A stretch of DNA of 64,000 nucleotides from Cornus controversa (Eukaryota > Streptophyta > Magnoliopsida > Cornales > Cornaceae), in the NCBI GenBank assembly GCA_026545225.1, contig CM048845.1:65485033-65549032 (forward strand), written 5' to 3'. A program made the position numbers and the translations under genes. This document shows, piece after piece, positions 1,455 through 64,000 of the stretch (the stretch's first letter is position 1; the number at the start of each line of letters is the position of its first letter). The notes beneath the pieces were generated by a model. It ran no database searches and was not told the DNA's origin. It was given only the letters and a program-made list of their open reading frames with translations.

Positions 1455-1876
1455 TGACGCAGAACGGAAGTATAAGGGGTTACCAGCGTAAACCCTAAGA
1501 ACAAAAACTGGAATCCACCAGCACAATTAATTGTAAACCAAAATAAAACTTTATTGATAAATTGATTAATTGATTGATTTCTGTCCTATGGCAGTACATA
1601 TATTTATAATAGACAAATCATAATCCTAACAATACTAGGAAACCTAAAAATAAAGAAAACTTGTAGAAATTCTAATCCTAATAGTACTAGGAAACCTAAA
1701 AACAAAAGAAAACTTGTAGAAATCCTAATCCAAACACGAAAAGGAAATCTATTTCCAAAAGGAAACTAAAATAAAAGAAAATTAGTATCTAAAATTAAAC
1801 TTTCTTTTAAAAAAAATATTATATATATATATATAAATATATATAATATGAAACCTACTAAAACTGTCCTACATCA
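1455..1876 (-). repeat. 3' LTR of the gag-only element
   Basis: It is 422 bp and matches 7192-7618 almost throughout, including an internal AT-rich patch near 1820-1845. On the minus strand it begins TGATGTAGG and ends GCGTCA. Confidence 0.9.
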
Positions 1877-1890
1877 GTCTCCCCCACTTC
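1877..1890 (-). other. Polypurine tract of the gag-only element
   Basis: On the minus strand this reads GAAGTGGGGGAGAC and directly abuts the LTR start. That is the expected place and composition of the plus-strand primer. Confidence 0.75.
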
Positions 1891-2213
1891 AAAAAAAATC
1901 TCGTCCTCGAGTTTAGTTGTGATGAAGAAGATATATCATATATGAGAATGAATAGAATTTTATACCACGCAAGACCTGATCTCAAAGCTTCATAAACTGG
2001 TTTCAATATTGTCTGCCAATTTTCTTTGCTTTGTTTCAACTTTTCAACAACACCACTTGATACTCCATATGGCTGAACTTCACTTTTAATGCCAAGATCC
2101 CAAATTTTAATGCTTGATTGTATCATTCTAGTAATTATAAAATTTACCTTTTCTCCACCTTTAAGTGGCCATTCAAGTCTTTTGGTGAATAAGGAACATT
2201 CTGGAATAATTTT

Positions 2214-3320
2214 TCAGTGAACATCCATGTTGGAATAACCATCAGCTAGGGTCTCATGGATAACATCATCATCCTCATTCTTGGTGCAAACCATGGAAGC
2301 ATCCTCAACATATTTGATCGTGTGCTCAAACTCTTGTGTCACGTCATTACCTTGACTCCTTGAATATGGGTCCATGTCGTAAGTGTTCCCATGCTCCATG
2401 CCTTCATCCTCTTCGAATTTGTTGAACAACAAGGAATCACAGGAAACTTTTGCGACTGATTGTTCTTCCAAGTTATCATTAATATCAACATATTCTTCCA
2501 CCTCCTTTTGGACATGCAATTTGAGATTTTCATCGTTTCGATCATCACCTAATTTGGCGTTGAAATCATTTTTTTTGTAATCTTTTGTTACAAGAGGTGA
2601 AACAATAAAATTTTTCTCACAATCAATCTCCTTAAAATAACTAGTGACTCCAATAAAATTACCTTCAAACTCCTTCGTCCAATCGTTGATAGACATATCA
2701 TCTTTCCTATAATTATGATATTTGTTATACATTATCTGCTCATAATCTGGTGGTAAAAACCTGCTCATCAGAAGTTATTTCATTCTCCTCCAGGTTCGTA
2801 TAGGAGTCTTGCCTTGTCGTCGCCTATCGTTTTGCAACTTCTCTCACCAAACAGTAGTCCCGCTTCTCAACTTATACGCCACCATCTTGACTTGTCGATC
2901 CTCCGTAACTTCAGTCATCTCGAAAAACCTCTCAACCTCAGAAATCCAGTCCAAAAATTCTTCAATATGCAATTTACCATGGAACAGCGGTATGTCTGTG
3001 CGTATTCTATAGTCATGTTGATTTTGATTTCGATTTTGTTGACGAATCCCTTGGTGATCCCCAACGTCCTCATCAGAGTCTTCATCACTCAAATCTTTGA
3101 ACTGCTCGTGTCTCGCCGCTCTAGGCGGATGTCCACCTCCAGGGCGGCCAAGGGCAACTCCCTCGACTCTAACTCTGTTGGCAGGGGCTTGAGCGTTACC
3201 AATAGGGATGTTGGGATTAGGCTGCCGCTCCATCAGTTGCTATAATGTGGCCGTCAACCTTTCCATCGCCTGTCGTTGCCCGTTAATCGCTACCCATATA
3301 TATGCATCCCTACGACCAGT
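2214..3320 (-). pseudogene. Ty3/gypsy gag pseudogene, split by a CACTA insertion
   Basis: Minus-strand reading frames at 2844-3233 and 2214-2768 form one degraded retrotransposon gag. The first contains the capsid signature [16 protein letters not shown] followed by a lysine/leucine segment ending in a conserved W. The second continues with a gag-like RFLPPDYEQIMY and an acidic tail. Between them (2769-2843) coding similarity continues but a stop separates the two parts. The N-terminus lies across the CACTA insertion: an ATG at 7155-7157 begins a frame that is cut at 7116 and resumes at 3320, where another in-frame stop follows. No zinc knuckle or pol follows. The capsid part resembles the gag at 33541-34260, so the two belong to related gypsy lineages. 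Confidence 0.8.
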
Positions 3321-3429
3321 CACTACAACAAAAGAGGTCTTAGGTGGCAAATATTTGGTGGCGGCCAAAAATAAGCCGCCACCTAAAAGCACTTTAACAT
3401 TTCTATCGACACGTTTTAGACATCACGTC

Positions 3430-3672
3430 TATTCTTCCTTCTCTCTCTCTCTCTCCTCTCGAGAACTCTCTGCTTCCTCTCCGATCGAGAACTCTTTGCT
3501 TCCTCTTCCTCTCTCTAACCTCTTGAGAACTCTTTGCTTCCTCTTCTCTCTCTCTCTCTCTAACCTCTTGAGAACTCTCTGCTTCCTCCCCGATCAAGAA
3601 CTCTTTGCTTCCTCTTCTCTCTCTAATCTCCGATCGAGAACTCTCTGCTTTTTCTTCCCTCTCTAACCTCCG
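3430..3672 (+). repeat. Pyrimidine-rich minisatellite in the CACTA element
   Basis: About six imperfect copies of a unit containing GAGAACTCTCTGCTTCCTC alternate with (CT)n runs and CGATCGAGAA. The layout resembles a 5' leader of a captured plant gene expanded by slippage. Apparent reading frames on both strands here come from the repeat. Confidence 0.8.
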
Positions 3673-3724
3673 ATCGAAAAATTTGGCGATTGAATGTTGA
3701 GACTCTGCATCAAATGCAATTGAT

Positions 3725-3962
3725 TTAAAAACCCTAGCTGATTCGATCTTCGACCTCAATTGATTTCAAAACCCTAGCAAATTATCGGGATCATTGTCGA
3801 TGTTTCTAATCGATTCGCGATGGACGACGAGTTTCTATCTCACAAATTATCGATTTCGCTGAGTTCTAGAAGACGCCATGAAAGGACCTATAACCTCCTC
3901 CACTGCTCACAAGAAAATTGATGCAGAGTACAACATGTCTTCTGATTGCGATTCTACTGGTT
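3725..3962 (+). pseudogene. Captured 5' leader and first-exon-like segment
   Basis: Two AAAACCCTAG boxes (near 3728 and 3768), typical of plant housekeeping-gene leaders, precede candidate ATGs at about 3821 and 3878. The second begins a short reading frame, MKGPITSSTAHKKIDAEYN, that runs into a (CT)n(AT)n microsatellite at 3968-4024. I do not recognise the protein. Because the piece lies in a CACTA element upstream of Nudix exons in the same orientation, it may be the start of a captured gene, possibly a different one. Confidence 0.4.
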
Positions 3963-3967
3963 ATTCA

Positions 3968-3968
3968 C

Positions 3969-4024
<56 letters not shown>
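3968..4024. repeat. (CT)n(AT)n microsatellite
   Basis: A run of CT dinucleotides passes directly into AT dinucleotides. Confidence 0.95.
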
Positions 4025-4028
<4 letters not shown>

Positions 4029-4814
4029 ACACATTGAAGTTTCTTTGTCTGCAGCGGCCATTGAGTATTCTACTAATATTTCTTGGTAACACTAGAATGC
4101 GAATTTATAGGGTTTCTTTAAGAGACATTTATATATTGTTATGCATTGAACCTCTTTGTCTGATTACAATTTACGGATTCATTTATCTGCTCTGGTGATT
4201 GTTTCAAGTTATTTTATGCTTTATTGAATCCTGACATTGAACATTTGATTTCTTTTGTAGTAAAATTTGAAGTTCTTTTCTGGAAAAGAAAACTCATCTC
4301 ATGTTAGACTAATGATTTTTAGTAGAACAATCCCTGTTCACGGAGTAATTTTGGAGTGTTGATACTTATAAACTGTCAGACCTTTATATCATGGTATTCC
4401 GGGTGGCTCTATTTGTGATTCATCGACTGAAGACCTTAGCAATTTATGTTGCAGCCATGATGCTCAAAACAGGGTATTGGACTGATCAAGATATCAAAGA
4501 TGTGAGCACTACTGTTAATTCCTCAACTCTCTTCACTACTCTTTTTTAATATATATGTTTAATTCAAATATATATGTTTTCAAATAAATTTTGGTGATTT
4601 TGGGAATGATTTTAATTCACATAATGATTTTGTTCACTCTTCAGTTCTCTTATGCATTTTGATTCACCAATAGTTCTTTCAATTTGTTCCTTTAATCCCT
4701 GGACATTCATGCATAGTTAAAAATCCATTGATACCATTGTCTAAGCAAAAGATTTATGTATTTCAGATTTCCCCTCAACTATATAGTGACTTTATTTATT
4801 TGTGTAATTTTGCA

Positions 4815-5198
4815 AGGAAAGAACGGTGTTTGGATTAAATTGCCTAATGAACTTGTAAATCTTGTTGAAGTTGCCTTGCAGATAAGGTAAAAAAAAATTA
4901 TAATAGTATTAACTATCGATGAATTAATCATGTTCGGTCTTCATCATGTTTTGATGGGTTGGTAAATTTGCTCTATGAAGTTCAAACATTTCATTTTGGT
5001 AGATTCTGGTAGTCCAAGAATAGTGACAAATTCAAGAGGCACTGGCATCTGGAAAATGCCCACTGGGGTGATTGATGAGGTGTGTAACCGGCACTTCAGT
5101 GTTCCATCTATTGTTAATAGATTGTTAGGATATCATTTTTTCTCTCTTTTATGTAGGGTGAGGATATATGTGCAGCTGCAATCAGAGAACTATGTTTG
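4815..5198 (+). pseudogene. Captured Nudix hydrolase exons (plant NUDT-like fragment)
   Basis: Three exon-like segments in plus orientation match the plant cytosolic Nudix (nucleoside-diphosphate-X hydrolase) family. Exon 4815-4886 encodes GKNGVWIKLPNELVNLVEVA and ends at a GT donor. The next exon ends at 5079 after RGTGIWKMPTGVIDE. A 77-bp GT...AG intron (5080-5156) follows, and 5157 resumes GEDICAAAIREL. The last two together give the front of the Nudix box: G, five residues, E, seven residues, R-E. The remaining E-E-x-G-U catalytic part is not seen downstream, nor is the segment that should join exons one and two. It therefore cannot make an active hydrolase. In the family, these enzymes hydrolyse ADP-ribose, NADH and related nucleotides. 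Confidence 0.75.
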
Positions 5199-6033
5199 TA
5201 TGTTTCTTTCCCTTTAAGTAGTAATTTATTACAACTATCTTGTGATCATTTCATAGATTGCTCTATTTTTGCTAGTTGAGTTGTAGTAAATTTTTTATCA
5301 TATAATGTCAAAGGATTTGCATCAATGATTTTTATTGAGAGATGCAGACTCAATTTTTATTATATAATATCATAATGACTAACAGTATAGTGCAGTTCTC
5401 TAGTGCTGCTTTGAAATTTTCATTTATGATAGAGCGACATGCATGTCTGATCAACTGGGGGGAAGTAATTGCAAACAAATAGCATAAGTTCTAAATTTTT
5501 AGTGTAAACATAAGTTTCTGGTAGAAAACTGAAACTCCCTTCTCTTGCTAATATAATTTGCTGTAAACATAAGTTGGTTGTTGTAAAACATTATGTGTGT
5601 GTCTTTTTTTTTATATAAAAATAAACGCTCTATGTTCTGTTTGCTAATATATGAAAATCGTCCGGTTCAATTATTCATAGAAGTAGTTTGCTTATAGTTG
5701 AATATCACCTGGTTCAGTTATTCATAGAAGTAGAATCTTGAACGGAATGTGGTTGAAATTGACTGGAGATAGACGGTTGAAAATGAATACTCTCAAGGTA
5801 AAACTATGATCTTTAAGAGAAATGTAGATGAATATTTATGTTTCTTGTTTGATTCTAGAATAAGAAATTTTCCCCTTTCTCTCTCATTTTGTAATAGATT
5901 TCAAAAAGAGAAGGCAGTAAATTTTGTGTGGCAACAACAACTGAAGTTAGTGAAATATATAATAAGGTATTATGCTTTCAGATTATTATGCTCTCTGCTC
6001 TTTAGGCATTATAAGAAAGAATATAATATGGAT

Positions 6034-6163
6034 TCTTGAAGGAAGTATGTTTGGATGCTACATATAAATATATATGGATCTCATCATTATTAGTCAAGGT
6101 TCTTGAAGGAAGTATGTTTGGATGCTACATATATATGGATCTCATCATTATTAGTCAAGATCT
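6034..6163 (+). repeat. Two-copy tandem duplication, about 65 bp
   Basis: TTCTTGAAGGAAGTATGTTT followed by GGATGCTACATAT and a downstream ATTAGTCAAG occurs twice in a row inside the CACTA element. The copies differ mainly by a short AT insertion. Confidence 0.85.
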
Positions 6164-6280
6164 GTTGCATTTCCAATCAAATTGGAACATGTATGTTTAT
6201 ATTCGTAGTGGATTCTTTTGTTTCTCTGTCTTATTCCTAAGATTGTTTCGTGAAGCTTCCAATGTTTGTTCTGTCTTCAG

Positions 6281-6409
6281 GCACTTAAACATACTTGATT
6301 ACCCATTAATTCATGCAAAATGGACGAACATAAAGAAAGTTCTCTCCGAAGAAACAGAGGCTATGAAACAGTTGGATCCAGAGAAAAGAGCTTTCAAAGA
6401 GACTACTGT
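6281..6409 (+). pseudogene. Exon-like captured fragment of an unrecognised gene
   Basis: After a pyrimidine tract and a TTCAG acceptor at 6280, an open frame encodes HLNILDYPLIHAKWTNIKK followed by an acidic/basic helix-prone segment containing QLDPEKRAFKE. Base composition is richer in G and C than the flanking intron-like DNA, as expected for a coding piece. I do not recognise the family. It may come from the same donor as the Nudix exons or from another gene. Confidence 0.4.
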
Positions 6410-6814
6410 GGGTAGAGACGTCCTTCCTCATCGGCAATTTCCGCTAAATTGCCTTTAAATCTGATAATTATCTAATTTGAAATGAAATTTAGATTTATGA
6501 GAAATATTGTTAAGAATAGTTTTTTTTTCTTCTGCAGGTTGCAAATAGATAAAAGTGAATTTACCAAGCAATAATATGTGAATTTTGCTACTCCTTTCTT
6601 ATTGTGTTTGTAATATAGTAGATTCTAAATATATGTATTAATGAAAGTATCAATATCTTTCTATTTTTGTATACTAGATGTAATATAAATCTTATTTTGA
6701 CGAGGATATTCGATTTTTCTTCGTAGACTAGTTTATTTTGGAGTGGTTGCAATACATAGGTAGTTGGTAATCAGGTATTATAGCCATTTTAGAATTTTTT
6801 TTTTATTTGAATTG

Positions 6815-7115
6815 TATCTTTAGTGGCGGTTTAAACCGCTGCTAAAATAGTTATTTTAGGAATAAACTATGTATATATTTAGCGGCGGTTACAACAGCTG
6901 CTATAGGCCTACACTGCATAGAATTTTTTGTTGATATTTTGTTATCTTTAGTGGCGGTTATGGCTGCCACTATAGGCCTAAACTCTATAACGGCTGCACC
7001 TAATACCAGCCAAAAGGATATCCGCCACCCAGGTGCCACTACAAGCTATTGCGGCAGTTTTTGGAGTTTTTAGCGGCGATTTTGACCGCTGCTAAAAGTG
7101 AATTTTGTTGTAGTG
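6815..7115. repeat. Sub-terminal repeats of the CACTA element
   Basis: Repeated GC-rich motifs in both orientations, such as AGTGGCGGTT, TAGCGGCGGTT, CCGCTGCTAAAA and GGCTGCCACTATAGGCC, cluster in the last 300 bp. Related motifs (GGTGGCGGCC, GCCGCCACCTAAAA) lie at 3348-3392. Sub-terminal arrays of this kind are transposase-binding regions in CACTA elements. Confidence 0.75.
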
Positions 7116-7176
7116 AGTGTCGCCAGGGTTAACTCCTCGGTCTTCGTTGTTGACCATCGTACAAGGCAAATCCTTA

Positions 7177-7189
7177 GGCTCTGATACCA
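7177..7189 (-). other. Primer-binding site of the gag-only element
   Basis: On the minus strand this reads TGGTATCAGAGCC, matching the 3' end of initiator tRNA-Met, and begins two bases from the right LTR. Confidence 0.9.
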
Positions 7190-7191
7190 CT

Positions 7192-7618
7192 TGACGTAGA
7201 AGGGAAGTATAAGGGGTTACCAGCGTAAACCCTAAGAACAAAAACTGGAATGGAATCCACCAGCACAATTAATTGTAAACCAAAGTAAAACTTTATTGAT
7301 AAATTGATTAATTGATTGATTTCTGCCCTATGACAGTACATATATTTATAATAGAGAAATCCTAATCCTAACAATACTAGGAAACCTAAAAATAAAGAAA
7401 ACTTGTAGAAATTCTAATCCTAAAAGCACTAGGAAACCTAAAAACAAAAGGAAACTTGTAGAAATCCTAATCCAAACAGGAAAAGGAAATCTATTTCCAA
7501 AAGGAAACTAAAATAAAAGAAAATTAGTACCTAAAATTAAACTTTCTTTTAAAAAAAATATTATATATATATATAAATATATATATAATATGAAACCTAC
7601 TAAAACTGTCCTACATCA
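7192..7618 (-). repeat. 5' LTR of the gag-only element
   Basis: It is 427 bp, starts TGACGTAG and ends CTACATCA on the plus strand, and is nearly identical to 1455-1876 apart from small indels and substitutions. The high identity suggests a fairly recent insertion. Confidence 0.9.
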
Positions 7619-8568: not shown

Positions 8569-10275
8569 CTAAGCCAACAACAGATCAATGAGGGCTACTA
8601 CAGTCTGCGTTAGAGTGAGTAAAAGGAGCACAGCAGCTGCAGATGTTGAAATACTTACCCATGGGTTGTGGAAATAGTTGTGCCTTAACTTCGCCTTGGC
8701 TCGATTCCAACATTTTCCACAATGTTTATTCACCTCTTGGCATATTTGTGAGTAATAGAAATTTGATTCTATTATTACTCCATCACCCAACTTGTTAAAC
8801 ATACGAGCCACCTCACTATCATCACCCAACATGTTCTCTATAATTCCATGGAGACGAAGTGTATTCACGTCTTTCTCCGTGTTGATAAGCAAATCCATGA
8901 AGTATTGGTAATCTGTGAAATATTTGATATCGACACTAGAAGAATGCTGCTCGTAGGCAATAATGTTACGCAAGAATGTCTCTGTTCGATCTTGCACTTT
9001 AAATTTAGGAATTTTCATGTGACCATGCTGGAAGACTATATCGAAAATGCTGACATCATCATTGTCATCAACTTTGAAGCTAATACCAGCCTCTTGAAGC
9101 TCGGTCACGCAAGACATTTGGTCACAATATTGATTACCACTTGAATTAGATTTATCATCATTGTCATCAACTTTGAAGCTAATACTAGCCTCTTGAAGCT
9201 TGGTCACGCAAGGCATTTGGTCACAATATTGATGACCACTTGAATTAGATTTATCATCATTGTCATCAACTTTGAAGCTAATACCAGACTCTTGAAGCTC
9301 GGTCACGCAAGACATTTGGTCACAATATTGATGACCACTTGAATTAGATTTAGAGGTTGTGTTTGAATCAAAATCCTTCCCATATAAGGGAAGATAAATA
9401 TTATGCACCAAGTCAAGAAAATGCTTGCTTTCACTAGCAGGTTCCGTCCTAGCAAGTTGGGCAATGATTTCGATAACTGAATCCTTACAACTGGGTAGCA
9501 TCGGAAAAATAGGAAAAATTGCCATCACCATGAGGGGTCTATATTTGAAATCTGGGTTAGAAGTCATGGCAAGCAATTTAGAGAGAATGAAGAAGGGAAG
9601 TTGGTTTTCAAGCAATATGAGGTCGCGGTAGATTTGCATTTCCATCCAAGATGATCTGAAAATAGGGTCATCCTTATCTCTTTGCTCCTTGAACAAACAT
9701 TTGTGAAGCAACTCGATAATAAAGCAAGCATCAACTAGCATCATTTCCACAAATTCCTCACTTTTAAGATGTATGCGGTCTGCGTAACAGCCACGAGCTT
9801 CATCCTCCAGTTCCTCCATGAGGAGGAGGTAAGGCTCTACACTGATGGTGTCATTATAATAATAATAATTATTATCATTATCATTATTGCGTTGAAGAAA
9901 GGAACGTAAGTAGCGCAACTTATGTTGTTCCATTGCATGTAGTTTGGGGTTTCCATGGTGGTAAGGACCAATGGATACCAGTGTGGGCGTGTACGCTTTT
10001 TTATTCACTCTCCGTAGTTCCTCATGCACTTTGAATATACAAGGTTCAGCAGGCAGAGGTGGCAAACGATGGATCTTTTCATCCATAAGTTGCACTGTTT
10101 TCTTCATGAGTGGAATCGGAACAATTTCACTTGAAACACGGGAAGAATCTGAAAGATTTTGACTTTGATCAGCTTTATCGATTACTTCAGTCACAACTGT
10201 AATAACTGATAGAAAACAGGAAATAAAATGATATTCGAAGAAACAAAGAGAGATACTTTTCAGTTTACATATCAT
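8569..10275 (-). CDS. DUF247 (UPF0481) membrane-anchored protein, gene 1
   Basis: An uninterrupted 568-codon frame encodes a plant DUF247 protein (PF03140). The domain opens with PCIFKVHEELRRVNKKAYTP and SIGPYHHG near residues 78-108, continues with VDACFIIELL (181-190) and LILLENQLPFFI (219-230), and ends with a hydrophobic C-terminal segment (about 540-566) of the family's usual membrane anchor. Residues 309-407 are three consecutive 33-residue copies of one segment that occurs once in gene 2, so it is longer than its 474-residue paralogue. Residues 129-142 are an Asn/Asp/Tyr run encoded by an ATT/ATA microsatellite. The first 27 or so residues have no match in gene 2, and a pyrimidine-rich TTACAG stands just before the shared VTEVI, so the true start may lie in an upstream exon. 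DUF247 genes determine self-incompatibility in grasses; elsewhere function is mostly unknown. Confidence 0.9.
   Translation of the reverse strand: MICKLKSISLCFFEYHFISCFLSVITVVTEVIDKADQSQNLSDSSRVSSEIVPIPLMKKTVQLMDEKIHRLPPLPAEPCIFKVHEELRRVNKKAYTPTLVSIGPYHHGNPKLHAMEQHKLRYLRSFLQRNNDNDNNYYYYNDTISVEPYLLLMEELEDEARGCYADRIHLKSEEFVEMMLVDACFIIELLHKCLFKEQRDKDDPIFRSSWMEMQIYRDLILLENQLPFFILSKLLAMTSNPDFKYRPLMVMAIFPIFPMLPSCKDSVIEIIAQLARTEPASESKHFLDLVHNIYLPLYGKDFDSNTTSKSNSSGHQYCDQMSCVTELQESGISFKVDDNDDKSNSSGHQYCDQMPCVTKLQEASISFKVDDNDDKSNSSGNQYCDQMSCVTELQEAGISFKVDDNDDVSIFDIVFQHGHMKIPKFKVQDRTETFLRNIIAYEQHSSSVDIKYFTDYQYFMDLLINTEKDVNTLRLHGIIENMLGDDSEVARMFNKLGDGVIIESNFYYSQICQEVNKHCGKCWNRAKAKLRHNYFHNPWVSISTSAAAVLLLLTLTQTVVALIDLLLA
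9055..9351 (-). repeat. Three exact-length 99-bp tandem repeats in the DUF247 gene
   Basis: Three in-frame units of 99 bp encode residues 309-341, 342-374 and 375-407, each beginning KSNSSG and ending KVDDNDD. Units differ by only a few substitutions. The single equivalent in gene 2 lies between SGGHQ and VDESDD. The small divergence points to recent duplication by unequal exchange or replication slippage. Confidence 0.95.
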
Positions 10276-10476
10276 TTTTTTTTTTTTTTCAAATTCTCAA
10301 TCATTAATTTTTTAGCAATAATCACTTTTTGTTACAAAAGTTTTAATTTTTTTTTTCCCAAAGTTGAAATATTTGAAGGGTTGTAAAATTAATTAAAATA
10401 ATAATAAAAATAGGGATGGTCTACTATTCTTAGTTCCATGGTTCGTGGAACCGATGGACTACGAGGTTTAATGTAA
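10276..10476. other. Upstream region of DUF247 gene 1
   Basis: Two poly-T tracts (plus strand, about 10274-10290 and 10349-10357) and AT-rich DNA lie just 5' of the frame. No clear TATA box or additional exon can be fixed by eye. The foldback element at 10477-10637 lies within the presumptive promoter. Confidence 0.4.
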
Positions 10477-15228: not shown

Positions 15229-15789
15229 CTTTTTGGGAGAATTACTCTGACCTCTTTTGAGATTTGTCCAATTTACTTGCGAGCTGAAACTTTTAGTGAA
15301 AGTATGATTGACCTCCCTTGAAGTTTGTTGAAATTACTCGGATTACCCCTGACGTTGATCAGGGGTTATGTTCGTTAGTGGAATACTTCCTAAATGTAAA
15401 ACTACCCTTAAGTAAAATCAAATGACTTAAATGAACTTATTAATATACCAAATGACTATTTCAATTGATTATATCTAAACAAAACTACTCTTGCTTGTAT
15501 TTTATATAACATACCCTTGCTTATAACTATATTTTTCTCACTCTATTTTTTTTTCTCTTTCTTATTTTTTTGGGAGAATTACTCTTACCTCCTCTAAGGT
15601 TTGTCCAAATTACTCGTAGTTTGAAACTTTTAGCGAATGTATGATCAACCTCCCTTGAGGTTTGTCAAAATTACTCAAAGTACCCCTGATGTTGGTCAGG
15701 GGTTAAGTCTGTTAGTGAATACCTCCTAAATGTCAAAACTACCCTTAAGTAAGATAAAATGACTTAAATTAACTTATTAATATAGCAAA
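15229..15789 (+). repeat. Two-copy tandem repeat, period about 338 bp
   Basis: A block starting TTTTTGGGAGAATTACTCT and containing ACCCCTGA-GTTG-TCAGGGGTTA and CTACCCTTAAGTAA occurs at about 15229-15470 and again at 15567-15789. A weaker relative with GACCTC-GAGGTTTG-ACAAATTAC is present near 26800-27060. The block resembles a dispersed plant repeat of unknown class. The small open frames are not genes. Confidence 0.8.
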
Positions 15790-16667
15790 TGTAATACCTC
15801 GCTCCAACACATGGTATGATATTGTCCGCTTTGGGCCTGAGCCTGCACGATTTTGCTCTTGGGTTTTACCCTAAAAGGCCTCATACCATTTGAAGAGAAC
15901 ATAATATATATAAGCACATCCCCTTTTCCACACCCAAGTGATGTGGGATTGAGCACCCTATACCCTGTCAGTGTGACAGCTCAGCCCAGTGTCTGTCTTC
16001 GCACTCGCTCACTCACACCCGCCCACAAGGGTTACTATAATCCACCCCCTAGGAGGCCCGACATCCTCGTCGGCACACTTCTGGCTGGGTTCAGGATCGG
16101 ATACCAATTGTACTATCTCGCTCCAACATATGGTATGATATTGTCCGCTTTGGGCCTGACCTCGCACGATTAATTTGCTCTTGGATTTTATCTCAAAAGG
16201 CCTCATACCATTTGAAGAGAACATACTACATATAAGCACATCCCCTTTTCCACACCCAGGCAATGTGAGATTGAGCACCCTGTACCCTGTCAGTGTGGTA
16301 GCTCAACCCAGTGTCTGTCTTCGCACCCGCTCACTCACACCCGTCCACAAGGGTTACTACAATCCATCCCTCTACGAGACCTGATGTCCTCGTCGGCACA
16401 CTTCCGACTAGGTTCAGGCTTTGATACCAACTGTAATACCCCGCTCCAACACATGGTATGATATTTTTTGCTTTGGGCCTGAGCCAGCACGATTTTGCTT
16501 TTGGATTTTACCCCAAAAGGCCTCATACCATTTGAAGAGAACATACTACATATAAACACATCCCCTTTTCCATACCCAGGCGATGTGGGATTGAGCACCT
16601 TGTACCCTATCAGTGTGGTAGCTCAGCCCAGTGTCTGTTTTTGTACCCGTCCACAAGGGTTACTACA
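15790..16667 (-). mobile_element. TRIM retrotransposon array: three LTRs, two mini internals
   Basis: Three copies of one LTR (about 15790-16039, 16109-16361, 16432-16667) are separated by internal segments of only about 70 bp. Each internal segment has a polypurine tract next to the left LTR and an initiator-Met primer-binding site next to the right LTR (minus strand TTGGTATC-AAGC, intact before 16432 and degraded before 16109). LTRs begin TGTAATACC and end TTACTACA on the plus strand. There is no coding capacity. The outer flanks (GCAAA and CCTTC) do not match, so the array probably formed by recombination after or during insertion. Confidence 0.85.
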
Positions 16668-32801: not shown

Positions 32802-33331
32802 TGGTGGAAATTGGGGCAGTTTTGGGTGCGTTTCGGTATTCTGGCCATAACTTTTGCTACGGGTATCAGATCACTCTTATAACCTCAATTCGGAAAGCTC
32901 TCTTTGGCGCACACGTCATGGGTACCCAGCAAAGCTGGGTGCATATTTTTGCGAGCCCAAACTCCGCTATTTTTCCTTCTGAATCCCCATTTTAGTTTTT
33001 CTTTCCTTTTATAGTAATATTTTCTTTTGTCGTTTTAGCATTGATTCTGAACTCGATTTGGGCCAGATTTTTGACAGCTTACTAATTTTATTTCGTATTT
33101 CATTTTGGCGTGATTATTCGGATTTTTCTATTTTTGGTAAGATTCTGATATTTACGATTTTTTAGCTATATAGCCCGGCTTGTGGGCTAACTTGAGGTGA
33201 ACTTTGATTTTGAATAATAATTTGAATACGAGAGGATTTTCTTTGTGTTTTGGGTGATTCTCTTGCGTTCTTCTCTGTGAATTGCATTTTGATATTAGCT
33301 TACAGAATAATCACTATTCTGTCCGCCGTCA
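32802..33331 (+). repeat. 5' LTR of the gypsy element
   Basis: It aligns with 37732-38263 from GGGCAGTTTTGGGTGC to ATCACTATTCTG and ends CCGTCA next to the primer-binding site. The first 15 bases are uncertain. Confidence 0.85.
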
Positions 33332-33333
33332 AT

Positions 33334-33345
33334 TGGTATCAGAGC
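33334..33345 (+). other. Primer-binding site of the gypsy element
   Basis: TGGTATCAGAGC, complementary to initiator tRNA-Met, begins two bases after the LTR. Confidence 0.9.
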
Positions 33346-33379
33346 TTCAGCATCTTCCTGGGTGAGATTTCATCAGTTT

Positions 33380-34310
33380 CCATGGCTGGTGGTCGTGGTT
33401 GTGGTCATCGCAGGCAGGTTTCGAACGAGGAAGTTCCACACCGTGATCGTAGTGTTTAGGATTTGATGATTGAGGATTTATAGAGGCTAGTTGTAGAGTT
33501 AACCCAGCGTCTAACGACGCAGGCTTTCAGTGACCGTGAGATGGAAGATCACGAATCTGATTCCAGTTTCGAAAACCCATTTCACAATCGTGCTCGATTC
33601 TGGGAGCATCGTGGTCGGGGGGATTGTCATGGAGACCTCAGTTTCAGAGTGGATCTGCTCGAGTTTTCTAGTACATTACAGGCCGAAGGATTTGTCGATT
33701 GGTTGAATGAAATAGAGCGAATCTTTGAGTATAAGGAAGACCCAGATCGTGTCAAAGTGAAACTGGTTGCCATCAAACTCAAAGGCAAAGCCTCTGCATA
33801 GTGGGAGCAGTTGAGGCGATCACGAGATAGGCAAGGCAAGGCCAAGATCACTGATTAGGAGAAGATGAAGAAGAAGATGATTCCTTTCGGCTACATTCAA
33901 ACCTTGTTTCAGTGACTTCATTTGTTGAGGCAAGGCACAAGATCGATTGATGATTACATGGAGGAGTTCTATCAATTGATAGCCCAGAATGATTTATCTG
34001 AGATGGAAGAGCAGATGGTGGCGCGGTATTTGGGAGGATTGCGGCAACCCCTACAAGATATGCACAACCTTCACTCTCTTTGGACTATTTCTGAAGCATA
34101 CCAGCGCGCACTTGCTATAGAAAAACAACAGAATATGAGCCGAGTGGTCAAGAGCGATCAAAGCAATCGGCCAGTTCGCCCTCAAAAATCCCGTCCTGTC
34201 CAGCAGCCACCGCAGGATAATTCTAACTCAAACATTAGATGTTTCAGATGTGGTGAATAGGGACATAGAGCGACTGAGTACAGGAAGCCTGCTAGTTAGA
34301 AGGGCAAAAA
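33380..34310 (+). pseudogene. gypsy gag, degraded
   Basis: The ATG at 33380 starts a frame that stops at 33457. From 33541 the frame gives the capsid segment EGFVDWLNEIERIFEYKEDP, then is broken by stops around 33799-33915. It resumes with TRSIDDYMEEFYQLIAQNDL and ARYLGGLRQPLQD (33922-34260) and reaches the CCHC zinc knuckle CFRCGE...GHRATEC with a stop inside it at about 34258. At least five inactivating changes are visible. Capsid-region similarity to 2844-3233 is evident. Confidence 0.9.
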
Positions 34311-34329
34311 TCTCCTAATTGAGGAAGAT

Positions 34330-34842
34330 GTGGTAGACGAAACTGAGGAGATTGGAGAGCCTGTGTTTAACGATGATGAAGATGGAGATGTGTTGTATGG
34401 AGATGGCCGTGAGACTCTGGTCATTCGTAAGAGTCTATTGACTCCCAAGGGCGATTCAGGAGATAAATGGTTAAGAGCCAATATTTTCCACATGACTTGC
34501 ACAGTTGCAGATAAAGTCTGTAAGATGATCATTGACAGTGGCAGTTGTAAGAACGTCGTGTCTGAAGAGGCTGTCCAAAAATTGCAGTTAAAGACAGATC
34601 GTCATCCCAACCCGTACAAATTGTCATGGCTGAATAAAGGCAGTGAGGTAATAGTGTCTTTTTCGATCGGCAAAAAATATTTTGATAATGCTTGGTGTGA
34701 TGTTGTGTCTATGGATGCTTGTCATGTACTGTTAGGCAAACCTTGGCAGTATGATCGTAGTGTTATTGATGATGGGCAAAAAAACACATATTCCCTTGAC
34801 ATCAAGGGGAAGAAGATTGTGTTGGCCCCTCGTTGGGAATGA
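34330..34842 (+). pseudogene. gypsy aspartic protease region
   Basis: An open frame of 170 codons contains the protease active-site motif IDSGSCKNVVSEEAVQKL (about residues 66-85) and MDACHVLLGKPWQYDRSV, matching retropepsin-like proteases of plant gypsy elements. A stop at 34840 cuts it from reverse transcriptase. Confidence 0.85.
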
Positions 34843-34884
34843 ACTACTCCTACCCCGGTAGCCAAAACTACTAACCTGTTTTCT

Positions 34885-36290
34885 ATGTCCAGGTTTTTAA
34901 CTGAGATTGAGCGTGGGGACGTGGTCTATGCTCTGCTGCCTTGTGGGAATAGTGCAGCAGATGTGAACGTGAATCCAGATTTACCAGCAGAGGTGCAGCA
35001 GCTGCTAGCAGAGTTTTCTGACCTGATGCCAGAGGATCTTCCTCCTGGGCTGCAGCCTATGAGGGATATTCAGCATCAGACCGACCTTGTTTCGGGGTCC
35101 AGTTTGCCTAATCGATCGGCGTATTGCCTCAATCCCAAGGAATCTGAAGAACTGTAGCGACAGGTGGTAGAGTTGCTGGAGAGGGGCTACATCCGTGAGA
35201 GTATGAGCCCATGTGCAGTTCCTGCTCTGCTAGTGCCAAAGAAAGATGGCTCTTGGCGTATGTGTGTTGATAGCCGAGCAATCAACAGGATTATAGTGAA
35301 ATACAGGTTTCCAATTCTCCATCTAGATGATATGCTAGACCAGCTGTCCGGTTCTAAGATTTTTTCAAAAATTGACCTTAAAAGCGGATACCACCAGATC
35401 AGAATAAGGACTTGGGAAGAGTGGAAGACATCGTTTAAGATACAACATGGGTTGTATGAGTGGATGGTCATGCCTTTTGGGCTGTCCATTGCGCTCAGCA
35501 CATTTATGAGGTTTATGTATCAGGTTCTACGACCTTTCATGGGGACATTCATCGTATATTACTTCGATACATCCTCATCTATAGCCCGACATGGACGTCA
35601 CACTTTGATCACCTCCATGCCATTTTTGATATGTTGAGGACAGAGCACCTGTTCGTCAATCAGAAGAAGTGTTCTTTCTTCACTACTTCTGTAAATTTTC
35701 TTGGGTTTGTTGTATCTACTGATGGTGTTCATGCAGATCCGTCGAAGATAGACGCGCTCTTGGAGTGGCCCAAACCAAAAATCTTGCACGATGTCCAAAG
35801 TTTCCATGGATTGGCATCTTTCTACCGTCGGTTCATCAGAAACTTCAGCACTTTAATTGCTCCTGTCACAGAATGCCTCAAGGGAAATGATTTCCATTGG
35901 TTCGAGGAGGCGAAGGCCAGTTTTTATCTGGTCAAGCAGAAGATGACAGAGGCACTAGTTTTGGCACTTCCTGATTTTGAAAAGGTGTTTAAGGTAAACT
36001 GTGATACATTTGGGGTTGGCATTGGTGGTATTCTGAGTCAAGAGGGGCACCCAATAGCCTTTTTCAATGAGAAGCTATCAGGATCAAAGAAAAATTATTC
36101 CACCTATGATCTGGAGTTTTATGCCATTGTTTAGTCCCTGAAGCATTGGCGTCACTACCTAATAAAGAAGGAGTTCATTATCCTCACTGATCATGAGGCC
36201 TTGAAATACATTAATGGCCAACACAAGCTGAGTAGACGGCATGCCAAGTGGGTGGCGTACTATAGGAGTTCACGTTTGTGCTGAGGCACT
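34885..36290 (+). pseudogene. gypsy reverse transcriptase and RNase H
   Basis: Frames at 34885-35157, 35164-35637 and 35460-36134 share one ancestral reading. Present are [44 protein letters not shown] and the post-active-site [19 protein letters not shown] frameshift falls close to the catalytic Y-x-D-D region (about 35550-35580), so the enzyme is dead. RNase H follows with [18 protein letters not shown] and a stop after EFYAIV (about 36132). The RVADALSRR equivalent is at about 36311-36340. Confidence 0.9.
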
Positions 36291-36496
36291 AAGCAGGGAG
36301 TCTGAATCGTGTTGCAGATGCACTGAGTCGTCGTACGCTTCTATTCACCACCATGAGCACCAAAATTACAGGATTTGAGGCCTTCTCTGATATGTATGCT
36401 ACAGATCCTTCCTTCGGGAGGATAATTCAGGACGTAACTGATGGTCAACGACATGATTTTATTTTGCATAATGGTTACCTGTTTCGTTGATTACAG

Positions 36497-37710
36497 TTGT
36501 ACATTTCAAATTGTTCAATAAGGCAACAGATTATTAGTGAACTTCATAACGAGGGTCATTTTGGGCGAGATAAGACGTTGGCTTTGATCTCTTCCAACTA
36601 TTATTGGCCCAAATTATCCAGTGACGTGGCTCATTATGTGGAGCGTTGTTATGTGTGTCAGCAGTCCAAGGGAGTTCTCACTATTGCGGGCCTGTACACA
36701 GATTTACCGGTACCTGAAGCCCCTTGGCTTGATGTCAGTAAGGACTTTGTGTTGGGTTTATCCCGTACCCAACGGGCCTTGGATTCTATTTTGGTTGTGG
36801 TTGACAAGTTTTTCAAGATGGCCCATTTTGTAGCTTGCAGGAAAACAATGGATGCTGCTCTAGTCGCCCATCTTTACTTCAAGGAGATTGTGCATTTACA
36901 TGATGTTCCCCAATCCATTACTTCAGATCGGGACACCAAGTTCATGAGTCAATTCTGGAGGAGTCTATGGGAGAAACTAGGGACGAAGTTGAATTTTGGC
37001 AACGCCGACCATCCCCAGACAAATGGTCAGACCGAGGTGGTGAACCAGAGTTTGGGGAACCTTTTGACGAGTTTGGCAGGAACTAAATCAAAGCAGTGGG
37101 ATTTGGCATTAACTCAAGCAGAATTTGCCTATAACAGGTCAAAGAACAGAATAACAGGAATGAGCCCATTTGAGATTGTCTATGGTCAAACTCCATTCAG
37201 GGTGCTTGACTTAGCCCCTATTCCACGTGTGGGTCGTTTCAATCGCAAGCAGATGAAATGGCAGAACATCTTCGTGGTATCCACGAGCAGGTCAAGCTGG
37301 CCATTCACGAGAGTAATGCCAAGTACAAGGTTCAGGCTGACAGCCACCGTCGTCAGGTACTTTTTGATGTTGGTGATTTTGGTTAGACGATATTAACTCA
37401 TGACCATTTTCCTGTTGGAGAGTATAATAAGCTTAAGGAGAGGAATATTGGTCCCTGTGAGATCCTGCAGAAGATCAATGATAACACCTACAGACTACGC
37501 CTCCCCAATCATTTGCGGACTTCTGATGTCTTTAATGTAAAACACCTGAGTCCTTATTTTATGGATTCTGATGAAGCTATTGTGAACTTGAGGACGAGTT
37601 CTTTCCAACCCGGGGTGACTGATGCAGGAGTATCCGAGTCAGATGGTGCTGAGTTATCAGATGACACATTGATGGTACTGAGATACCTTGAGTTGGCATA
37701 TTAGCGCAAA
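36497..37710 (+). pseudogene. gypsy integrase
   Basis: The HHCC zinc-binding segment begins HNEGHFGRDKTL and closes at CYVCQQSKG. The D-D-E core has WLDVSKDFVLGL, SITSDRDTKFMSQFW and NGQTEVVNQSLGN. The 299-codon frame stops at 37394, and the C-terminal end continues in other frames to NVKHLSPYF (about 37530-37560). No chromodomain is seen before the 3' LTR. Confidence 0.9.
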
Positions 37711-37731
37711 GATGGCAGGAAGCCATGATCT

Positions 37732-38263
37732 TGTCCCTAATTAGGGCAGTTTTGGGTGCATTTCGGTATTCTGGCCATAACTTTGGCTACGGGTATCAGA
37801 ATCACTCTTATGACCCCAATTCAGAAATCTCTCTTTGGCGCGCACGTCGTGGGCACCCAGCAAAGCTGGGTGCATATTTTTTCGAGCCCAAAATCTTCTG
37901 TTTTCCCTTCCGAATCCCCATTTTTAGTTTTTCTTTCATTTTATAGTAATATTTTCTTTTGTCGTTTTAGCATTGATTCTGAACTCGATTTGGACCAGAT
38001 TTTTGATAGCTTACTTATTTTATTTCATATTTCATTTTGGCGTGATTATTGGGATTTTTCTATTTTTGGTAAGATTATGATATTTACAATTTTTCAGCTA
38101 TATAGCCCGGCTTGTGGGCTAATTTGAGGTGAACTTTGATTTTGAATAATAATTTGAATACGAGAGAATTTTCTCTGTGTTTTGGGCGATTCTCTTGCGT
38201 TCTTCTATGTGAATTGCCTTTTGACATTAGCTTACAGAATAATCACTATTCTGTTCGGCGTCA
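37732..38263 (+). repeat. 3' LTR of the gypsy element
   Basis: Matches the 5' LTR closely over about 515 bp, with scattered substitutions. Confidence 0.85.
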
Positions 38264-45800: not shown

Positions 45801-46353
45801 AATTATACATACCAAGATACCTAGTAACACATCAAATGACCTTCTTCAAATATTACAAAACAATGGAGTTTTCAAGCATTTACTCAAGTTGCCTTACACA
45901 AATATTTACAAGACTACGTGTTGCAAAGATAGCAACTAAAGCATCTTTCAAAAATATCTCAAAAACATTTGAACTCTCACAAAAGTACCAGCAATATTGT
46001 CTTCACATAGCACCAACGTTTTCAGCAAGTGTTTATACCTAAAAATGTCAAGGAATCAGATGACTACCAGTAAAGAAATACTAACAATCATCACCTTAAG
46101 GTTTGAAAAAGAGTTAAAAACACAAATTTAAAGGAAATTTTTTGAAATAAAGTACCAATACGAGATAACTCTTTATGAGATTAAAAACTACCAGCTTTTC
46201 AAACTATAAGATCTCAACTCAAAACCAAACTAAAGTACTTTACAACATAAATTCCAATTCATAGATTTCATTACCAAATTGGTGAATAGCATTTATCAAC
46301 ATCCATGGTGGCCCTCTGAGAATTAACGACCGCCAGCCTTTCACACCAGCGTG
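45801..46353. other. Intergenic DNA before the solo LTR
   Basis: No gene or element is recognised. A short frame at 45836-46042 lacks any domain. Confidence 0.45.
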
Positions 46354-46602
46354 TGTAATACCCCGCTCCAACACATGGTATGATATTGTCCGCTTTGGGC
46401 CTGAGCCCGCACGGTTTTGCTATTGGGTTTACCCCAAAAGGCCTCATACCATTTGAAGAAAACATACTACATATAAGCACATCCCCTTTTCCACACCCAG
46501 GCGATGTGGGATTGAGCACCTTGTACCCTGTCAGTGTGGTAGCTCAGCCCAGTGTCTGTCTATGCACCCGCCCACTCACACCCGTCCACAAGGGTTACTA
46601 CA
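46354..46602 (-). mobile_element. Solo TRIM LTR with perfect target duplication
   Basis: This 249-bp sequence is the same LTR as in the array at 15790-16667, starting TGTAATACCCCGC and ending TTACTACA. GCGTG occurs on both sides (46349-46353 and 46603-46607), a perfect 5-bp target duplication. A solo LTR arises by recombination between the two LTRs of an inserted element, deleting the internal part. The duplication confirms the LTR borders used for the array. Confidence 0.92.
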
Positions 46603-47265: not shown

Positions 47266-48690
47266 TTAAGCCAGTAGATCAATGAGGGCTACTACAGTCT
47301 GTGTTGTAGTGAGTACAAGGAGCACAACAGCTGCAGCCGTTGAAATACTTGCCCACCGGTTATTGAAATAGTTGCGCCTTAACTTCGCCTTGGCTTGATT
47401 CCAAGGTTTTTCACAATGTTCATTCACCTTTTGGCATACATGTGAGTAAGAGAAAGTTCGTGGATCTATTAATACTCCATCACCAAGCTTTTTAAACATA
47501 CCAGCCACCACCTCATCATCACCCAACATGTTTTCCATAATTCCTTGGAGACGAAGTTCATTCACATCTTTCTCGGTGTTTATAAGCAAATCCATAATGA
47601 ACTTATAATCTGTGAAATATTTGGGTTCAACAGTAGAAGAATGCTGCTCGTAGGCAACAATGTTACGCAAGAATGTCTCTGTCCCATCATCCACTATAAA
47701 TTTAGGGATTTTCAATTGACCGTGCTCGAAGCTTATATCAAAAATGCTGACGTCATCACTTTCATCTACTTGGAAGCTAATACCAGCCTCTTGAATCTCT
47801 GTTACGGAAGACATGTTGGTACAATTTTTTTGATGACCACCTGAACCAGAAATCTGTCGAGATGAGGGAAGATAGAACCTATGCACCAAGTCAAGAAAAT
47901 GCTTGCTTTCACCAGCAAATCTCTTCTGAATTAGTTGGTCCGTTATGGTTTTGGTATACTGTCTTGGCACACTCTCATTGACTAAACGCACTGCCATCTT
48001 GATGAGGGGCTCATAGTTGGAATTTGGGATATGGGTAATGTCAAACAATTCGGAGAGAACGAAGAAGGGAAGTTGGTTTTCAAGCAATAAGAGGTCGCGT
48101 AAGATTTGCCCTATCATCCAACCTGTTCTGAAAATCGGGTCATCCTTGTCTATCTGCACCTTGTTAGAAATTTTGCGAAGAAACTCAATGATAAAGGAAG
48201 CATCAAGGAGCATCATTTTCGCAAATTGGTGTCTCTCGACACAGTTGAGGTCTGCATAACAGGCTAGAGCTCTATCCGCCAGTTTCTCCATGTGGAGGAG
48301 GTAAGGCTCCACGTTGATGGTGTCACTATGATTAATGCGTCGAAGAAGGGAATGCAAATAGCGCAACTTATGTTTTTCCATTGCACGTAGGTTGGGGTTG
48401 GGGTTGGGGTTTCGGTGGTGGTAAGGACCTATAGATAGCAGTATGGGCGTGTACGCTTTTTCATTCACGTTGCGTAGTCCCTCGTGCACTTTGAAAATAC
48501 AAGGTTTAGGGAATAGAGGTGGCAAACCATGAATCTCGTCATTCATAACTCGCACTGTTTCGTTGAATTGAAGAATAATTTCACTTGAAACCCGTGAAGA
48601 ATCTAGAAGATTTTCACCTGGATTGACTTTAGTAATTACTTCAGTCGAAACTGGAGCAGCTTTTTTCTCAATATTAACGCAATGTTCCAT
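47266..48690 (-). CDS. DUF247 (UPF0481) membrane-anchored protein, gene 2
   Basis: A 474-codon intron-free frame encodes a close paralogue of 8569-10275, also on the minus strand. The first ATG is at 48690; an upstream GTG in frame is not a credible plant start. Family landmarks are PCIFKVHEGLRNVNEKAYTP, SIGPYHHR, LLDASFIIEFL, LLLENQLPFFVL, TFLRNIVAYEQHSS and FTDYKFIMDLLINTEKDV. It ends in a hydrophobic anchor (STAAAVVLLVL...ALIDLLA). Length is typical of the family, and the segment triplicated in gene 1 is single here. A short Asn-Pro run (about residues 94-100) comes from a GGTTGG repeat. Members are thought to sit in a membrane by the C-terminal helix; substrate and partners are unknown. 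Some grass relatives act in self-incompatibility, which cannot be extended to this gene. Confidence 0.93.
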   Translation of the reverse strand: MEHCVNIEKKAAPVSTEVITKVNPGENLLDSSRVSSEIILQFNETVRVMNDEIHGLPPLFPKPCIFKVHEGLRNVNEKAYTPILLSIGPYHHRNPNPNPNLRAMEKHKLRYLHSLLRRINHSDTINVEPYLLHMEKLADRALACYADLNCVERHQFAKMMLLDASFIIEFLRKISNKVQIDKDDPIFRTGWMIGQILRDLLLLENQLPFFVLSELFDITHIPNSNYEPLIKMAVRLVNESVPRQYTKTITDQLIQKRFAGESKHFLDLVHRFYLPSSRQISGSGGHQKNCTNMSSVTEIQEAGISFQVDESDDVSIFDISFEHGQLKIPKFIVDDGTETFLRNIVAYEQHSSTVEPKYFTDYKFIMDLLINTEKDVNELRLQGIMENMLGDDEVVAGMFKKLGDGVLIDPRTFSYSHVCQKVNEHCEKPWNQAKAKLRRNYFNNRWASISTAAAVVLLVLTTTQTVVALIDLLA

Positions 48691-49500
48691 CACTCCCGTG
48701 TCGTGTTCTATATCACCTGTTTATTTCATAAAAGTATCAGTCTTGTGAAGGAAAGGAAGATGCATGCAATGCAAACGAATTATTATATATATAAATATAA
48801 TTTGAAGGGAAAAATAAAGTAGAAAAATGATATGGGAACTGAAAAAGTTTCTCTATTTTATCCTCTTCTTTTCCAACCAAACTATATATATTTTTTGAGA
48901 AATGTTTGAATTCGAATTTTATTTGACCAATACTTATAAGATCAGATGCAAAGTTTTTGGTTGTACACCTTAATGCTCAAGTGAGAAGCAAAATTAAAGC
49001 AATATATGAATCAAGTGATCAAGAAGAAATTCAATCATTATGCAGAATTAATGGTTTCACAATAAACTTAATTTATTGGAATTTAGACAAGTTAAAAAAA
49101 ATGAAATTACATATATGGACACTCATTTTTTTTTTTTACTCAATATTTTTTCTAATAATTAAAACTTTATTTGTCACAGTGGACACTGCGACAATGTGCA
49201 CTTAATTTTGCAATGGAAAGATTCATTGGAAAAAGGAAAAATTTCATAACATGTAAAATAAGATGTAATAAAATGAAAAAAAAAATAAGATGTAAAACAC
49301 TGATTGTCTCGTATAAATTCAATATGATATTTTGAGCTGATTTTTTTTTTTGTGTCAGATGATTTTAGTATTGGCTACGTTGTGATATATTTTTTATATT
49401 TTTTTATGTTCAAAAATATTTATTTTGAGAAAGAGCTCATAACAAGAGCCATGAGAGCTCTCTCATAGTAACATTATTCTTTTAGTATGAGATTATGAAT
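48691..49500. other. Upstream region of DUF247 gene 2
   Basis: AT-rich with a long run of T (49128-49138). 48990-49180 is conserved beside the DUF247 remnant at 25916-26100, suggesting retained promoter-side DNA. No TATA box is assigned with confidence. Confidence 0.5.
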
Positions 49501-62443: not shown

Positions 62444-64000
62444 TTAAGGTGACTCGGTAAATATAGGCTTTAAGCCCATTCCCCTCGATGACTTATATAC
62501 TTGCTCTCTTGGTAAACCTTTTGTAAAAGGATCTGCTATATTGTCCATGGACTTCACATATTCAATGAAAATTATTCCATTTGAGAGCAACTGCTTAATG
62601 GTATTATGTCTCCTTCTTATATGCCGAGATTTACCATTATATATATGACTCTGTGCCCTCCCAATTGCTGATTGACTATCACAATGTATACAAATCGCAG
62701 GCACAGGTTTCGGCCAATTTGGAATATCCTCTAGGAAGTTACGAAGCCACTCTGCTTCTTCACTTGCCTTATCCAAAGCAATGAATTCAGATTCCATTGT
62801 GGATCTGGCAATACACGTTTGTTTTGAAGATTTCCAAGATACGACAGCACCACCAAGAGTAAAGATATATCCACTCGTGGATTTTGAGTCTTTTGTATCT
62901 GAGATCCAGTTAGCATCACTGTATCCCTCAAGAACAGCTGGGTACTTTGTATAATGTAATCCCAAATTCAGGGTGTATCTTAAATATCTTAATACCCTAA
63001 TTATTGCTGTCCAGTGATCCTTTCCTGGATTATTAGTATATCTACTCAGTCTATTTACTGAGTAAGCTATATCGGGTCGTGTGCAGTTCATCACATACAT
63101 TAGACTGCCTATGATCCGAGAATACTCGAGTTGTGATATGCCAGGACCATTATTCTTTGATAAATGAAGATTTAAATCTACAGGAGTTTTAGAAATATTC
63201 CTGTCATTTTTATTGAATTTATCTAGTATTTTCTCAATATAGTAAGATTGAGATAACATTAGACCTTCTGATGTTTTAGAAATTTTAATTCCTAGAATAA
63301 CATCAGCAATACCCATATCTTTCATATCAAAGTTATTCGTCAGCATTTTCTTAGTAGCTTTAATGGTGTCATTACTACCCATGATTAACATATCATCCAC
63401 ATATAGGCAGACAATCACATATTCATCTTGAGTTCTCTTAGTATACACACATTTATCACACTCGTTGATTTTAAATCCGTTTGATAACATCACTTTATCA
63501 AATTTCTCATGCCATTGTTTAGGTACTTGTTTTAATCCATAAAGAGATTTAACAAGTCTACACATTTTCTTCTCTTGTCCTTGAACAATAAACCCTTCTG
63601 GTTGTTCCATATAAATTTCTTCATCCAACTCACCATTCAAGAATGCTGTCTTAACATCCATTTGATGTATTTTGAGATTTTGCAATGCTGCAATTGCGAT
63701 TAACATTCTAATGGATGTAATTCTTGTTACTGGTGAGTATGCGTCAAAGTAATCTAAGCCCTCCTTTTGTTTGTAACCTTTAGCTACAAGTCTGGCTTTA
63801 TACTTATCTATTGATCCATCAGCTTTCATCTTCCTTTTGAAAATCCACTTACAACCAAATGGTTTATTTCCAGGAGGAAGATCCACCAATTCCCAAGTAT
63901 GGTTTTGTAAGATGGATTCAATTTCACTATTAATAGCCTCTTTCCACAAAGGAGCTTCTGGAGAAGACACAGCTTCTGTGTATGTTTGAGGCTCATTTTC
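62444..64000 (-). CDS. copia pol: reverse transcriptase and RNase H (5' end outside window)
   Basis: The frame is open from the window edge (64000) to a stop at 62444, at least 518 codons. The valine codon at 63970 is an internal residue, not a start. Counting from 63970, the RVT_2 domain begins with [20 protein letters not shown] (9-28) and has KWIFKRK (41-47), the catalytic Asp in [11 protein letters not shown] (about 105), the active-site YVDD (190-193) and [18 protein letters not shown]. The type-I RNase H follows with [20 protein letters not shown] and HCDSQSAIG, and the end is [10 protein letters not shown]. All key acidic residues are present and there are no stops, so this part could be functional. 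The enzyme would copy element RNA into DNA inside cytoplasmic virus-like particles. Confidence 0.95.

Follow-up and report, generated by a model that had tools for sequence, protein, structure and literature searches.

The 3,795-bp segment at positions 3321-7115 of the 64-kb window (the whole stretch of DNA that was analysed) is very probably a non-autonomous transposon of the Pack-CACTA kind, which carries pieces of a Nudix hydrolase gene and, most likely, of a katanin p60 gene, and which is nested in an LTR retrotransposon. Host coding fragments lie between its terminal inverted repeats, and the Nudix and katanin pieces share one orientation. The preliminary description, of a CACTA element carrying Nudix exons together with other gene pieces, is upheld by a match to Arabidopsis NUDT7, by the Pfam family PF00293 and by the likely katanin piece. 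The element belongs to a known kind of gene-shuffling transposon and is a further example rather than a new principle. It offers a clear CACTA case with well-supported boundaries and pieces of two unrelated plant genes, of which the second is most likely katanin.

Ends and subterminal repeats of the CACTA element

The element lies on the plus strand and is defined by its terminal inverted repeats, target-site duplication, empty site and subterminal repeats. The left terminal repeat, CACTACAACAAAA (3321-3333, plus strand), and its right counterpart, TTTTGTTGTAGTG (7103-7115, minus strand), start with CACTA and are identical as inverted repeats at 13/13 positions. Among the 821 CACTA/TAGTG pairs of the window with a spacing of 100-20,000 bp, the score of 13/13 is reached only at 3321/7115; one other pair scores 12 or more (12/13, with unequal flanks). 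The trinucleotide AGT is read directly outside both ends, at 3318-3320 and 7116-7118, as a 3-bp target-site duplication of the CACTA (En/Spm) type. Target-site duplications of Pack-CACTA elements are 3 bp long.

The subterminal repeats are of a GGCGG type. Counts of the unit TTTAGYGGCGGT describe the element and do not test it, the pattern being derived from the element itself: with up to one mismatch the element has 6 sites, which all lie at the right end (four forward and two inverted), and the remaining window has 0; with up to two mismatches, 7 versus 2 elsewhere; and with up to three, 13 versus 43 elsewhere. The right subterminal repeats, TTTAGYGGCGGTT ... ACCGCTGCTAAAA, occupy 6815-7102 (repeat families D4 and D5). 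In the left subterminal region (3334-3395) an inverted repeat, TTAGGTGGC ... GCCACCTAA, has its arms at 3331-3348 and 3378-3395, and the best forward unit, at 3354, carries 2 mismatches. Direct and inverted subterminal repeats are therefore found at both ends, weakly at the left one. The ends, the AGT duplication and the subterminal repeats named in the preliminary description were all recovered.

The end pattern CACTACAACAAAA, a gap of 0-30, and GCCGCYRCTAAA gave 0 matches in the viral_contigs and genome_contigs collections, which are non-plant and thus uninformative on sibling elements. The 13-nt terminal string was absent from the literature text searched, where a 12-nt form occurred only in an unrelated context.

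The surrounding retrotransposon and the empty site

The CACTA element sits within an LTR retrotransposon at 1455-7618 (minus strand), recognized by self-blastn and by minus-strand open frames. This context is not mentioned in the preliminary description, which was correct as to the element itself. The two LTRs, at 1455-1876 and 7192-7618, share 95.55% identity over 427 positions in self-blastn, and their divergence (K2P) is 0.034 over 422 sites. Free of the CACTA insert, the retrotransposon would be about 2.4 kb long.

Removal of the CACTA element and one AGT leaves on the minus strand a frame of MVNNEDRGVNPGDTGRRDAYIWVAINGQRQAMERLTATL, followed by a stop and, still in frame, by QLMERQ.... When the insert is present, the first gag-like frame shifts after NPGDT and stops seven residues on. 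The rejoining of the frame upon excision is the strongest support for the exact CACTA ends. The stop after TATL belongs to the retrotransposon, the copy of which was not intact or decayed afterwards. The gag and Ty3 labels are our reading of a gag-like start and of a primer site, TGGTATCAGAG, which we take to be a sign of the Ty3 type. No Pfam gag match was obtained for the two longest retrotransposon frames, and a GPAT_N match to a gag-like frame (E 0.25) was judged to be chance.

Nesting in a datable LTR element sets an upper limit to the age of the CACTA insertion. At substitution rates of 1.3e-8 and 7e-9, the LTR divergence of 0.034 places this limit at about 1.3 to 2.4 million years.

Transposase content

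The CACTA element contains 28 stop-to-stop frames of at least 45 aa, 26 of which were scanned against Pfam; the remaining two (3432-3593 and 3964-4104) are both on the minus strand. The element is called non-autonomous because no transposase domain was found in these 26 of the 28 frames. Weak matches to ACT_7 (E 0.25), 2TM (E 0.31) and CATSPERB_head (E 0.071) were attributed to chance.

Nudix pieces

Three pieces on the plus strand can be assigned to a Nudix hydrolase gene. Piece A (4816-4886; GKNGVWIKLPNELVNLVEVAL), in which GKNGVWIKLP reads from 4816, corresponds to the pre-Nudix domain and to residues 77-97 of Arabidopsis NUDT7. Its independent E-value against these residues, 0.16, is weak when taken alone, and its match to PF18290 (E 0.0004, 20.8 bits) lies below the cut-off of 26.5. 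Piece B (5003-5079; ILVVQE..SDKF..RGTGIWKMPTGVIDE) matches NUDT7 jointly with piece C (5157-5192; GEDICAAAIREL), and together they align with NUDT7 residues 145-182 at an independent E-value of 3.2e-6. Residues 98-144 have no counterpart in the alignments, so the middle of the Nudix domain seems to be missing.

The E-values for Nudix and the PF00293 scores rest on queries that we joined from the pieces. The joined read-through query of A, B and C matches Arabidopsis Nudix hydrolase 7 (PDB 4zb3) at two collinear places with an E-value of 5.7e-12; the same comparison gives 7.1e-9 when piece B is read in the frame of the preliminary description. Against PF00293 (NUDIX, cut-off 21.1) the read-through query scores 28.1 bits and the other joined query 23.7 bits. 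The single frame of piece B, 4966-5214, has no Pfam match on its own. A tblastn search of the window with a NUDT7 query that we wrote out ourselves gave an E-value of 6.7e-6.

The stretches GKNGVWIKLP, RGTGIWKMPTGVIDE and GEDICAAAIREL are thus present in plus orientation, as had been described, and the stretch as a whole is recognizable. However, its part before RGTGIW is out of the NUDT7 frame, with ILVVQE and SDKF in other frames; by our reading, which the NUDT7 alignment supports, piece B changes frame twice between ILVVQE and RGTGIW. As to the splice signals, earlier regarded as intact, pieces B and C join in phase across a 77-bp GT-AG intron, and the acceptor of exon A is weak (caag).

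A complete Nudix box ends in the motif REUXEEXGU. In piece C the sequence reads REL and then CLYVSF, so that the box, NUDT7-like up to this point, ends at REL. The claim that it is cut before its catalytic glutamates agrees with this reading: the EE pair is absent, and the E of REL is retained. As judged from the sequence, the Nudix part is a fragment and not a working enzyme.

Probable katanin p60 piece

The exon-like piece at 6281-6416 (plus strand; HLNILDYPLIHAKWTNIKKVLSEETEAMKQLDPEKRAFKETTVGR), left as an unknown exon in the preliminary description, is indeed present, and its source is now most likely a katanin p60 gene, as indicated by PF21126 and tblastn. It would encode the last part of the MIT domain, in a frame that is open to 6455. 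PF21126 (cut-off 23.1) is its one credible Pfam match, and none of three queries reaches the cut-off: the window's own frame 6027-6455 scores 16.2 bits (E 0.0083), a joined query 17.8 bits (E 0.0026), and a trimmed peptide preceded by three residues of the upstream piece 19.1 bits (E 0.0011). The match covers positions 29-63 or, with the trimmed query, 32-63 of the 64 positions of the profile. One joined katanin query also matched Egg_lysin (E 0.099), which was judged to be chance.

A tblastn search with an AtKTN1 N-terminus that we wrote out ourselves finds 6281-6416 at an E-value of 2.8e-17, the next place in the window having 0.15. This self-written query itself matches the katanin MIT family at 3e-22 and katanin A1 in the PDB at 7.5e-12. 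The piece, alone or with upstream pieces, had 0 PDB matches at E-values up to 10. Since the strong E-value depends on a self-written query, derivation of 6281-6416 from katanin p60 is held to be likely, with good though incomplete confidence. A katanin p60 has an N-terminal MIT domain followed by an AAA ATPase; part of the former is found here, and no AAA ATPase match was seen in the 26 of 28 element frames scanned. The piece is accordingly read as a fragment. The stretch preceding it, at 6033-6159, is a tandem duplication of 61-67 bp with 90% matches.

Leader and other exon-like pieces

A pyrimidine-rich leader at 3432-3677 (plus strand) contains tandem repeats of 26, 40, 45 and 109 bp, as found by repeat analysis. 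It is followed by an exon-like leader at 3700-3959 (plus strand), the start of which was set by us, with an ATG (MKGPITSS...) and two telo-boxes at 3729 and 3769. Both boxes of the telo-box-bearing leader described earlier are therefore there, but their weight is reduced: across the 64 kb, the two strands together contain the motif AAACCCTA 8 times, and the pair consists of parts of one duplicated 27-nt unit. Peptides of the leader 3700-3959 have no Pfam match.

Also on the plus strand are a 47-base exon-like piece at 4455-4501, one frame of which reads MMLKTGYWTDQDIKD, and two candidate GT-AG exons at 5698-5797 and 5898-5966 (together spanning 5698-5966), which have no Pfam match of their own. 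A UPF0220 match to 4455-4501 (E 0.048) was judged to be chance. No convincing Pfam family match was found for 3432-3959, 4455-4501, 5698-5797 or 5898-5966.

Coding capacity of a possible chimeric transcript

Nine candidate exons were defined with GT-AG sites picked by us, the outermost ends of the first and the last being set by hand, and 502 exon combinations (by arithmetic) were tested. The longest ATG-to-stop frame, 148 aa, is that of the chain E1-B-C-D2-F and includes the Nudix box and the katanin piece. Of the 128 chains that begin with E1 and end with F, 4 contain both pieces. None of the 502 combinations places exon A and the Nudix box in a common ATG-to-stop frame, and the chain of all nine exons has no such frame above 52 aa.

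In a phase-randomized control of 40 trials, every exon after the first was shortened at its start by a random 0-2 bases. A frame of at least 148 aa was reached in 14/40 trials (median 144.5), and four or more chains with both pieces were obtained in 10/40. Since the controls reach 148 aa this often, the coding compatibility is at chance level when exons are skipped freely, and the 148-aa frame was rejected as a coding signal. The idea of a chimeric transcript put forward in the preliminary description keeps its published precedent in Tgm-Express1, but the coding support does not go beyond chance.

Origin of the element and alternative explanations

In the preferred account, the pieces would have been captured from DNA rather than mRNA, as the intron-like stretches between them suggest. 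They may have been acquired when closely spaced elements were excised aberrantly, a model put forward for Pack-CACTA elements of Arabidopsis (PMC13317346). The element would have been mobilized in trans by an autonomous CACTA transposase recognizing its ends and subterminal repeats. The coding pieces are probably neutral debris by now; transcripts, if there are any, would be spliced chimeras that encode no working enzyme.

The probability that the exons are those of a resident host gene, with the CACTA ends lying there by chance, is negligible. We found nothing in favor of this reading; LTRs stand on both sides, and excising 3321-7115 with one AGT restores an open frame in the LTR element around it, an in-frame empty site that argues against a host gene passing through the element. 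Exons of a host gene reaching outside the element, which would have undone the preliminary description, are contradicted by this site in the gag-like frame, and that reading was rejected. A mobile chimeric gene, in which a promoter in the leader would drive the Nudix and katanin exons into a spliced mRNA and a fusion protein (E1-B-C-D2-F, 148 aa), can point to one chain that is open from ATG to stop across the leader, the Nudix box and the katanin piece, and to the spliced chimeric transcripts reported for soybean Tgm-Express1 (PMC1947982). It is nevertheless highly improbable, given how readily the controls equal both its 148 aa and its 4 of 128 chains, the limit of 52 aa for the nine-exon chain, and a Nudix box lacking the EE pair.

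A role at the RNA level, with transcripts or small RNAs of the element acting on the donor Nudix and katanin genes, is given a small probability. The captured pieces are collinear and share an orientation, as such a role would have it, but a CACTA element inside a retrotransposon is likely to be silenced. Captured fragments may affect their donor genes; section 6 of PMC1947982 raises effects on donors for translated products only. It is quite improbable that a leader-driven chimeric RNA joins the Nudix-box and katanin MIT pieces in a small fusion peptide or yields co-regulating small RNAs. If it did, the peptide could bind katanin partners, and the small RNAs would regulate both donor genes together. 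The nested Pack-CACTA element with neutral gene pieces remains the preferred explanation.

Other features of the window

Two minus-strand frames encode DUF247 plant proteins (8572-10296, E 1.6e-131; 47269-48720, E 1.8e-120; Pfam). They are 72-84% alike in DNA, and the former contains an in-frame 99-bp tandem repeat at 9055-9352 with copies 96-98% alike. A second LTR retrotransposon lies at 32809-38263 (plus strand), with LTRs at 32809-33331 and 37739-38263 (93% identity); between them Pfam finds the zinc-binding domain of an integrase (E 3.9e-20) and, slightly under its cut-off, an aspartyl protease. A repeat of about 230-320 bp is present in three tandem-like copies at 15782-16667 and again 30 kb away at 46334-46602, with 86-92% identity. 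At 62447-64000 (minus strand), a reverse transcriptase frame of the Copia type (RVT_2, E 6.4e-78) is open to the window end. The DUF247 genes and the element types point to a plant origin of the DNA.

Comparison with known systems

A search of the literature by title or start of abstract found no report of CACTA capture of Nudix or katanin sequences. Further cases of CACTA capture are described in papers on lettuce (PMC8195511) and Chenopodium (PMC8978399). The Tpn1 family of Ipomoea (PMC8195511) is, compared by description, similar in being of the CACTA type, its elements sharing subterminal regions and carrying a variety of host fragments that they captured.

In maize, Pack-TYPE elements frequently carry coding DNA from more than one locus, Pack-CACTA elements most of all (Gisby and Catoni 2022, PMC8903248). 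The element studied here resembles the Pack-CACTA elements of that article in being non-autonomous, in having terminal inverted repeats that start with CACTACAA, as in the Arabidopsis set, and in its target-site duplications; in some members, too, the coding DNA comes from more than one locus. The published pipeline uses copy number and donor loci, whereas our element is classed from its own sequence.

A precedent is Tgm-Express1, a CACTA element in soybean wp with five gene fragments and chimeric spliced RNAs (Zabala and Vodkin 2007, PMC1947982). In both, CACTA ends surround several unrelated host fragments kept as exons and introns. As far as the published description allows the comparison, Tgm-Express1 is larger (5.7 kb versus 3.8 kb), holds five fragments, has demonstrated transcripts and is inserted in F3H intron 2, whereas the present element holds two identified fragments and occupies a site in a retrotransposon.
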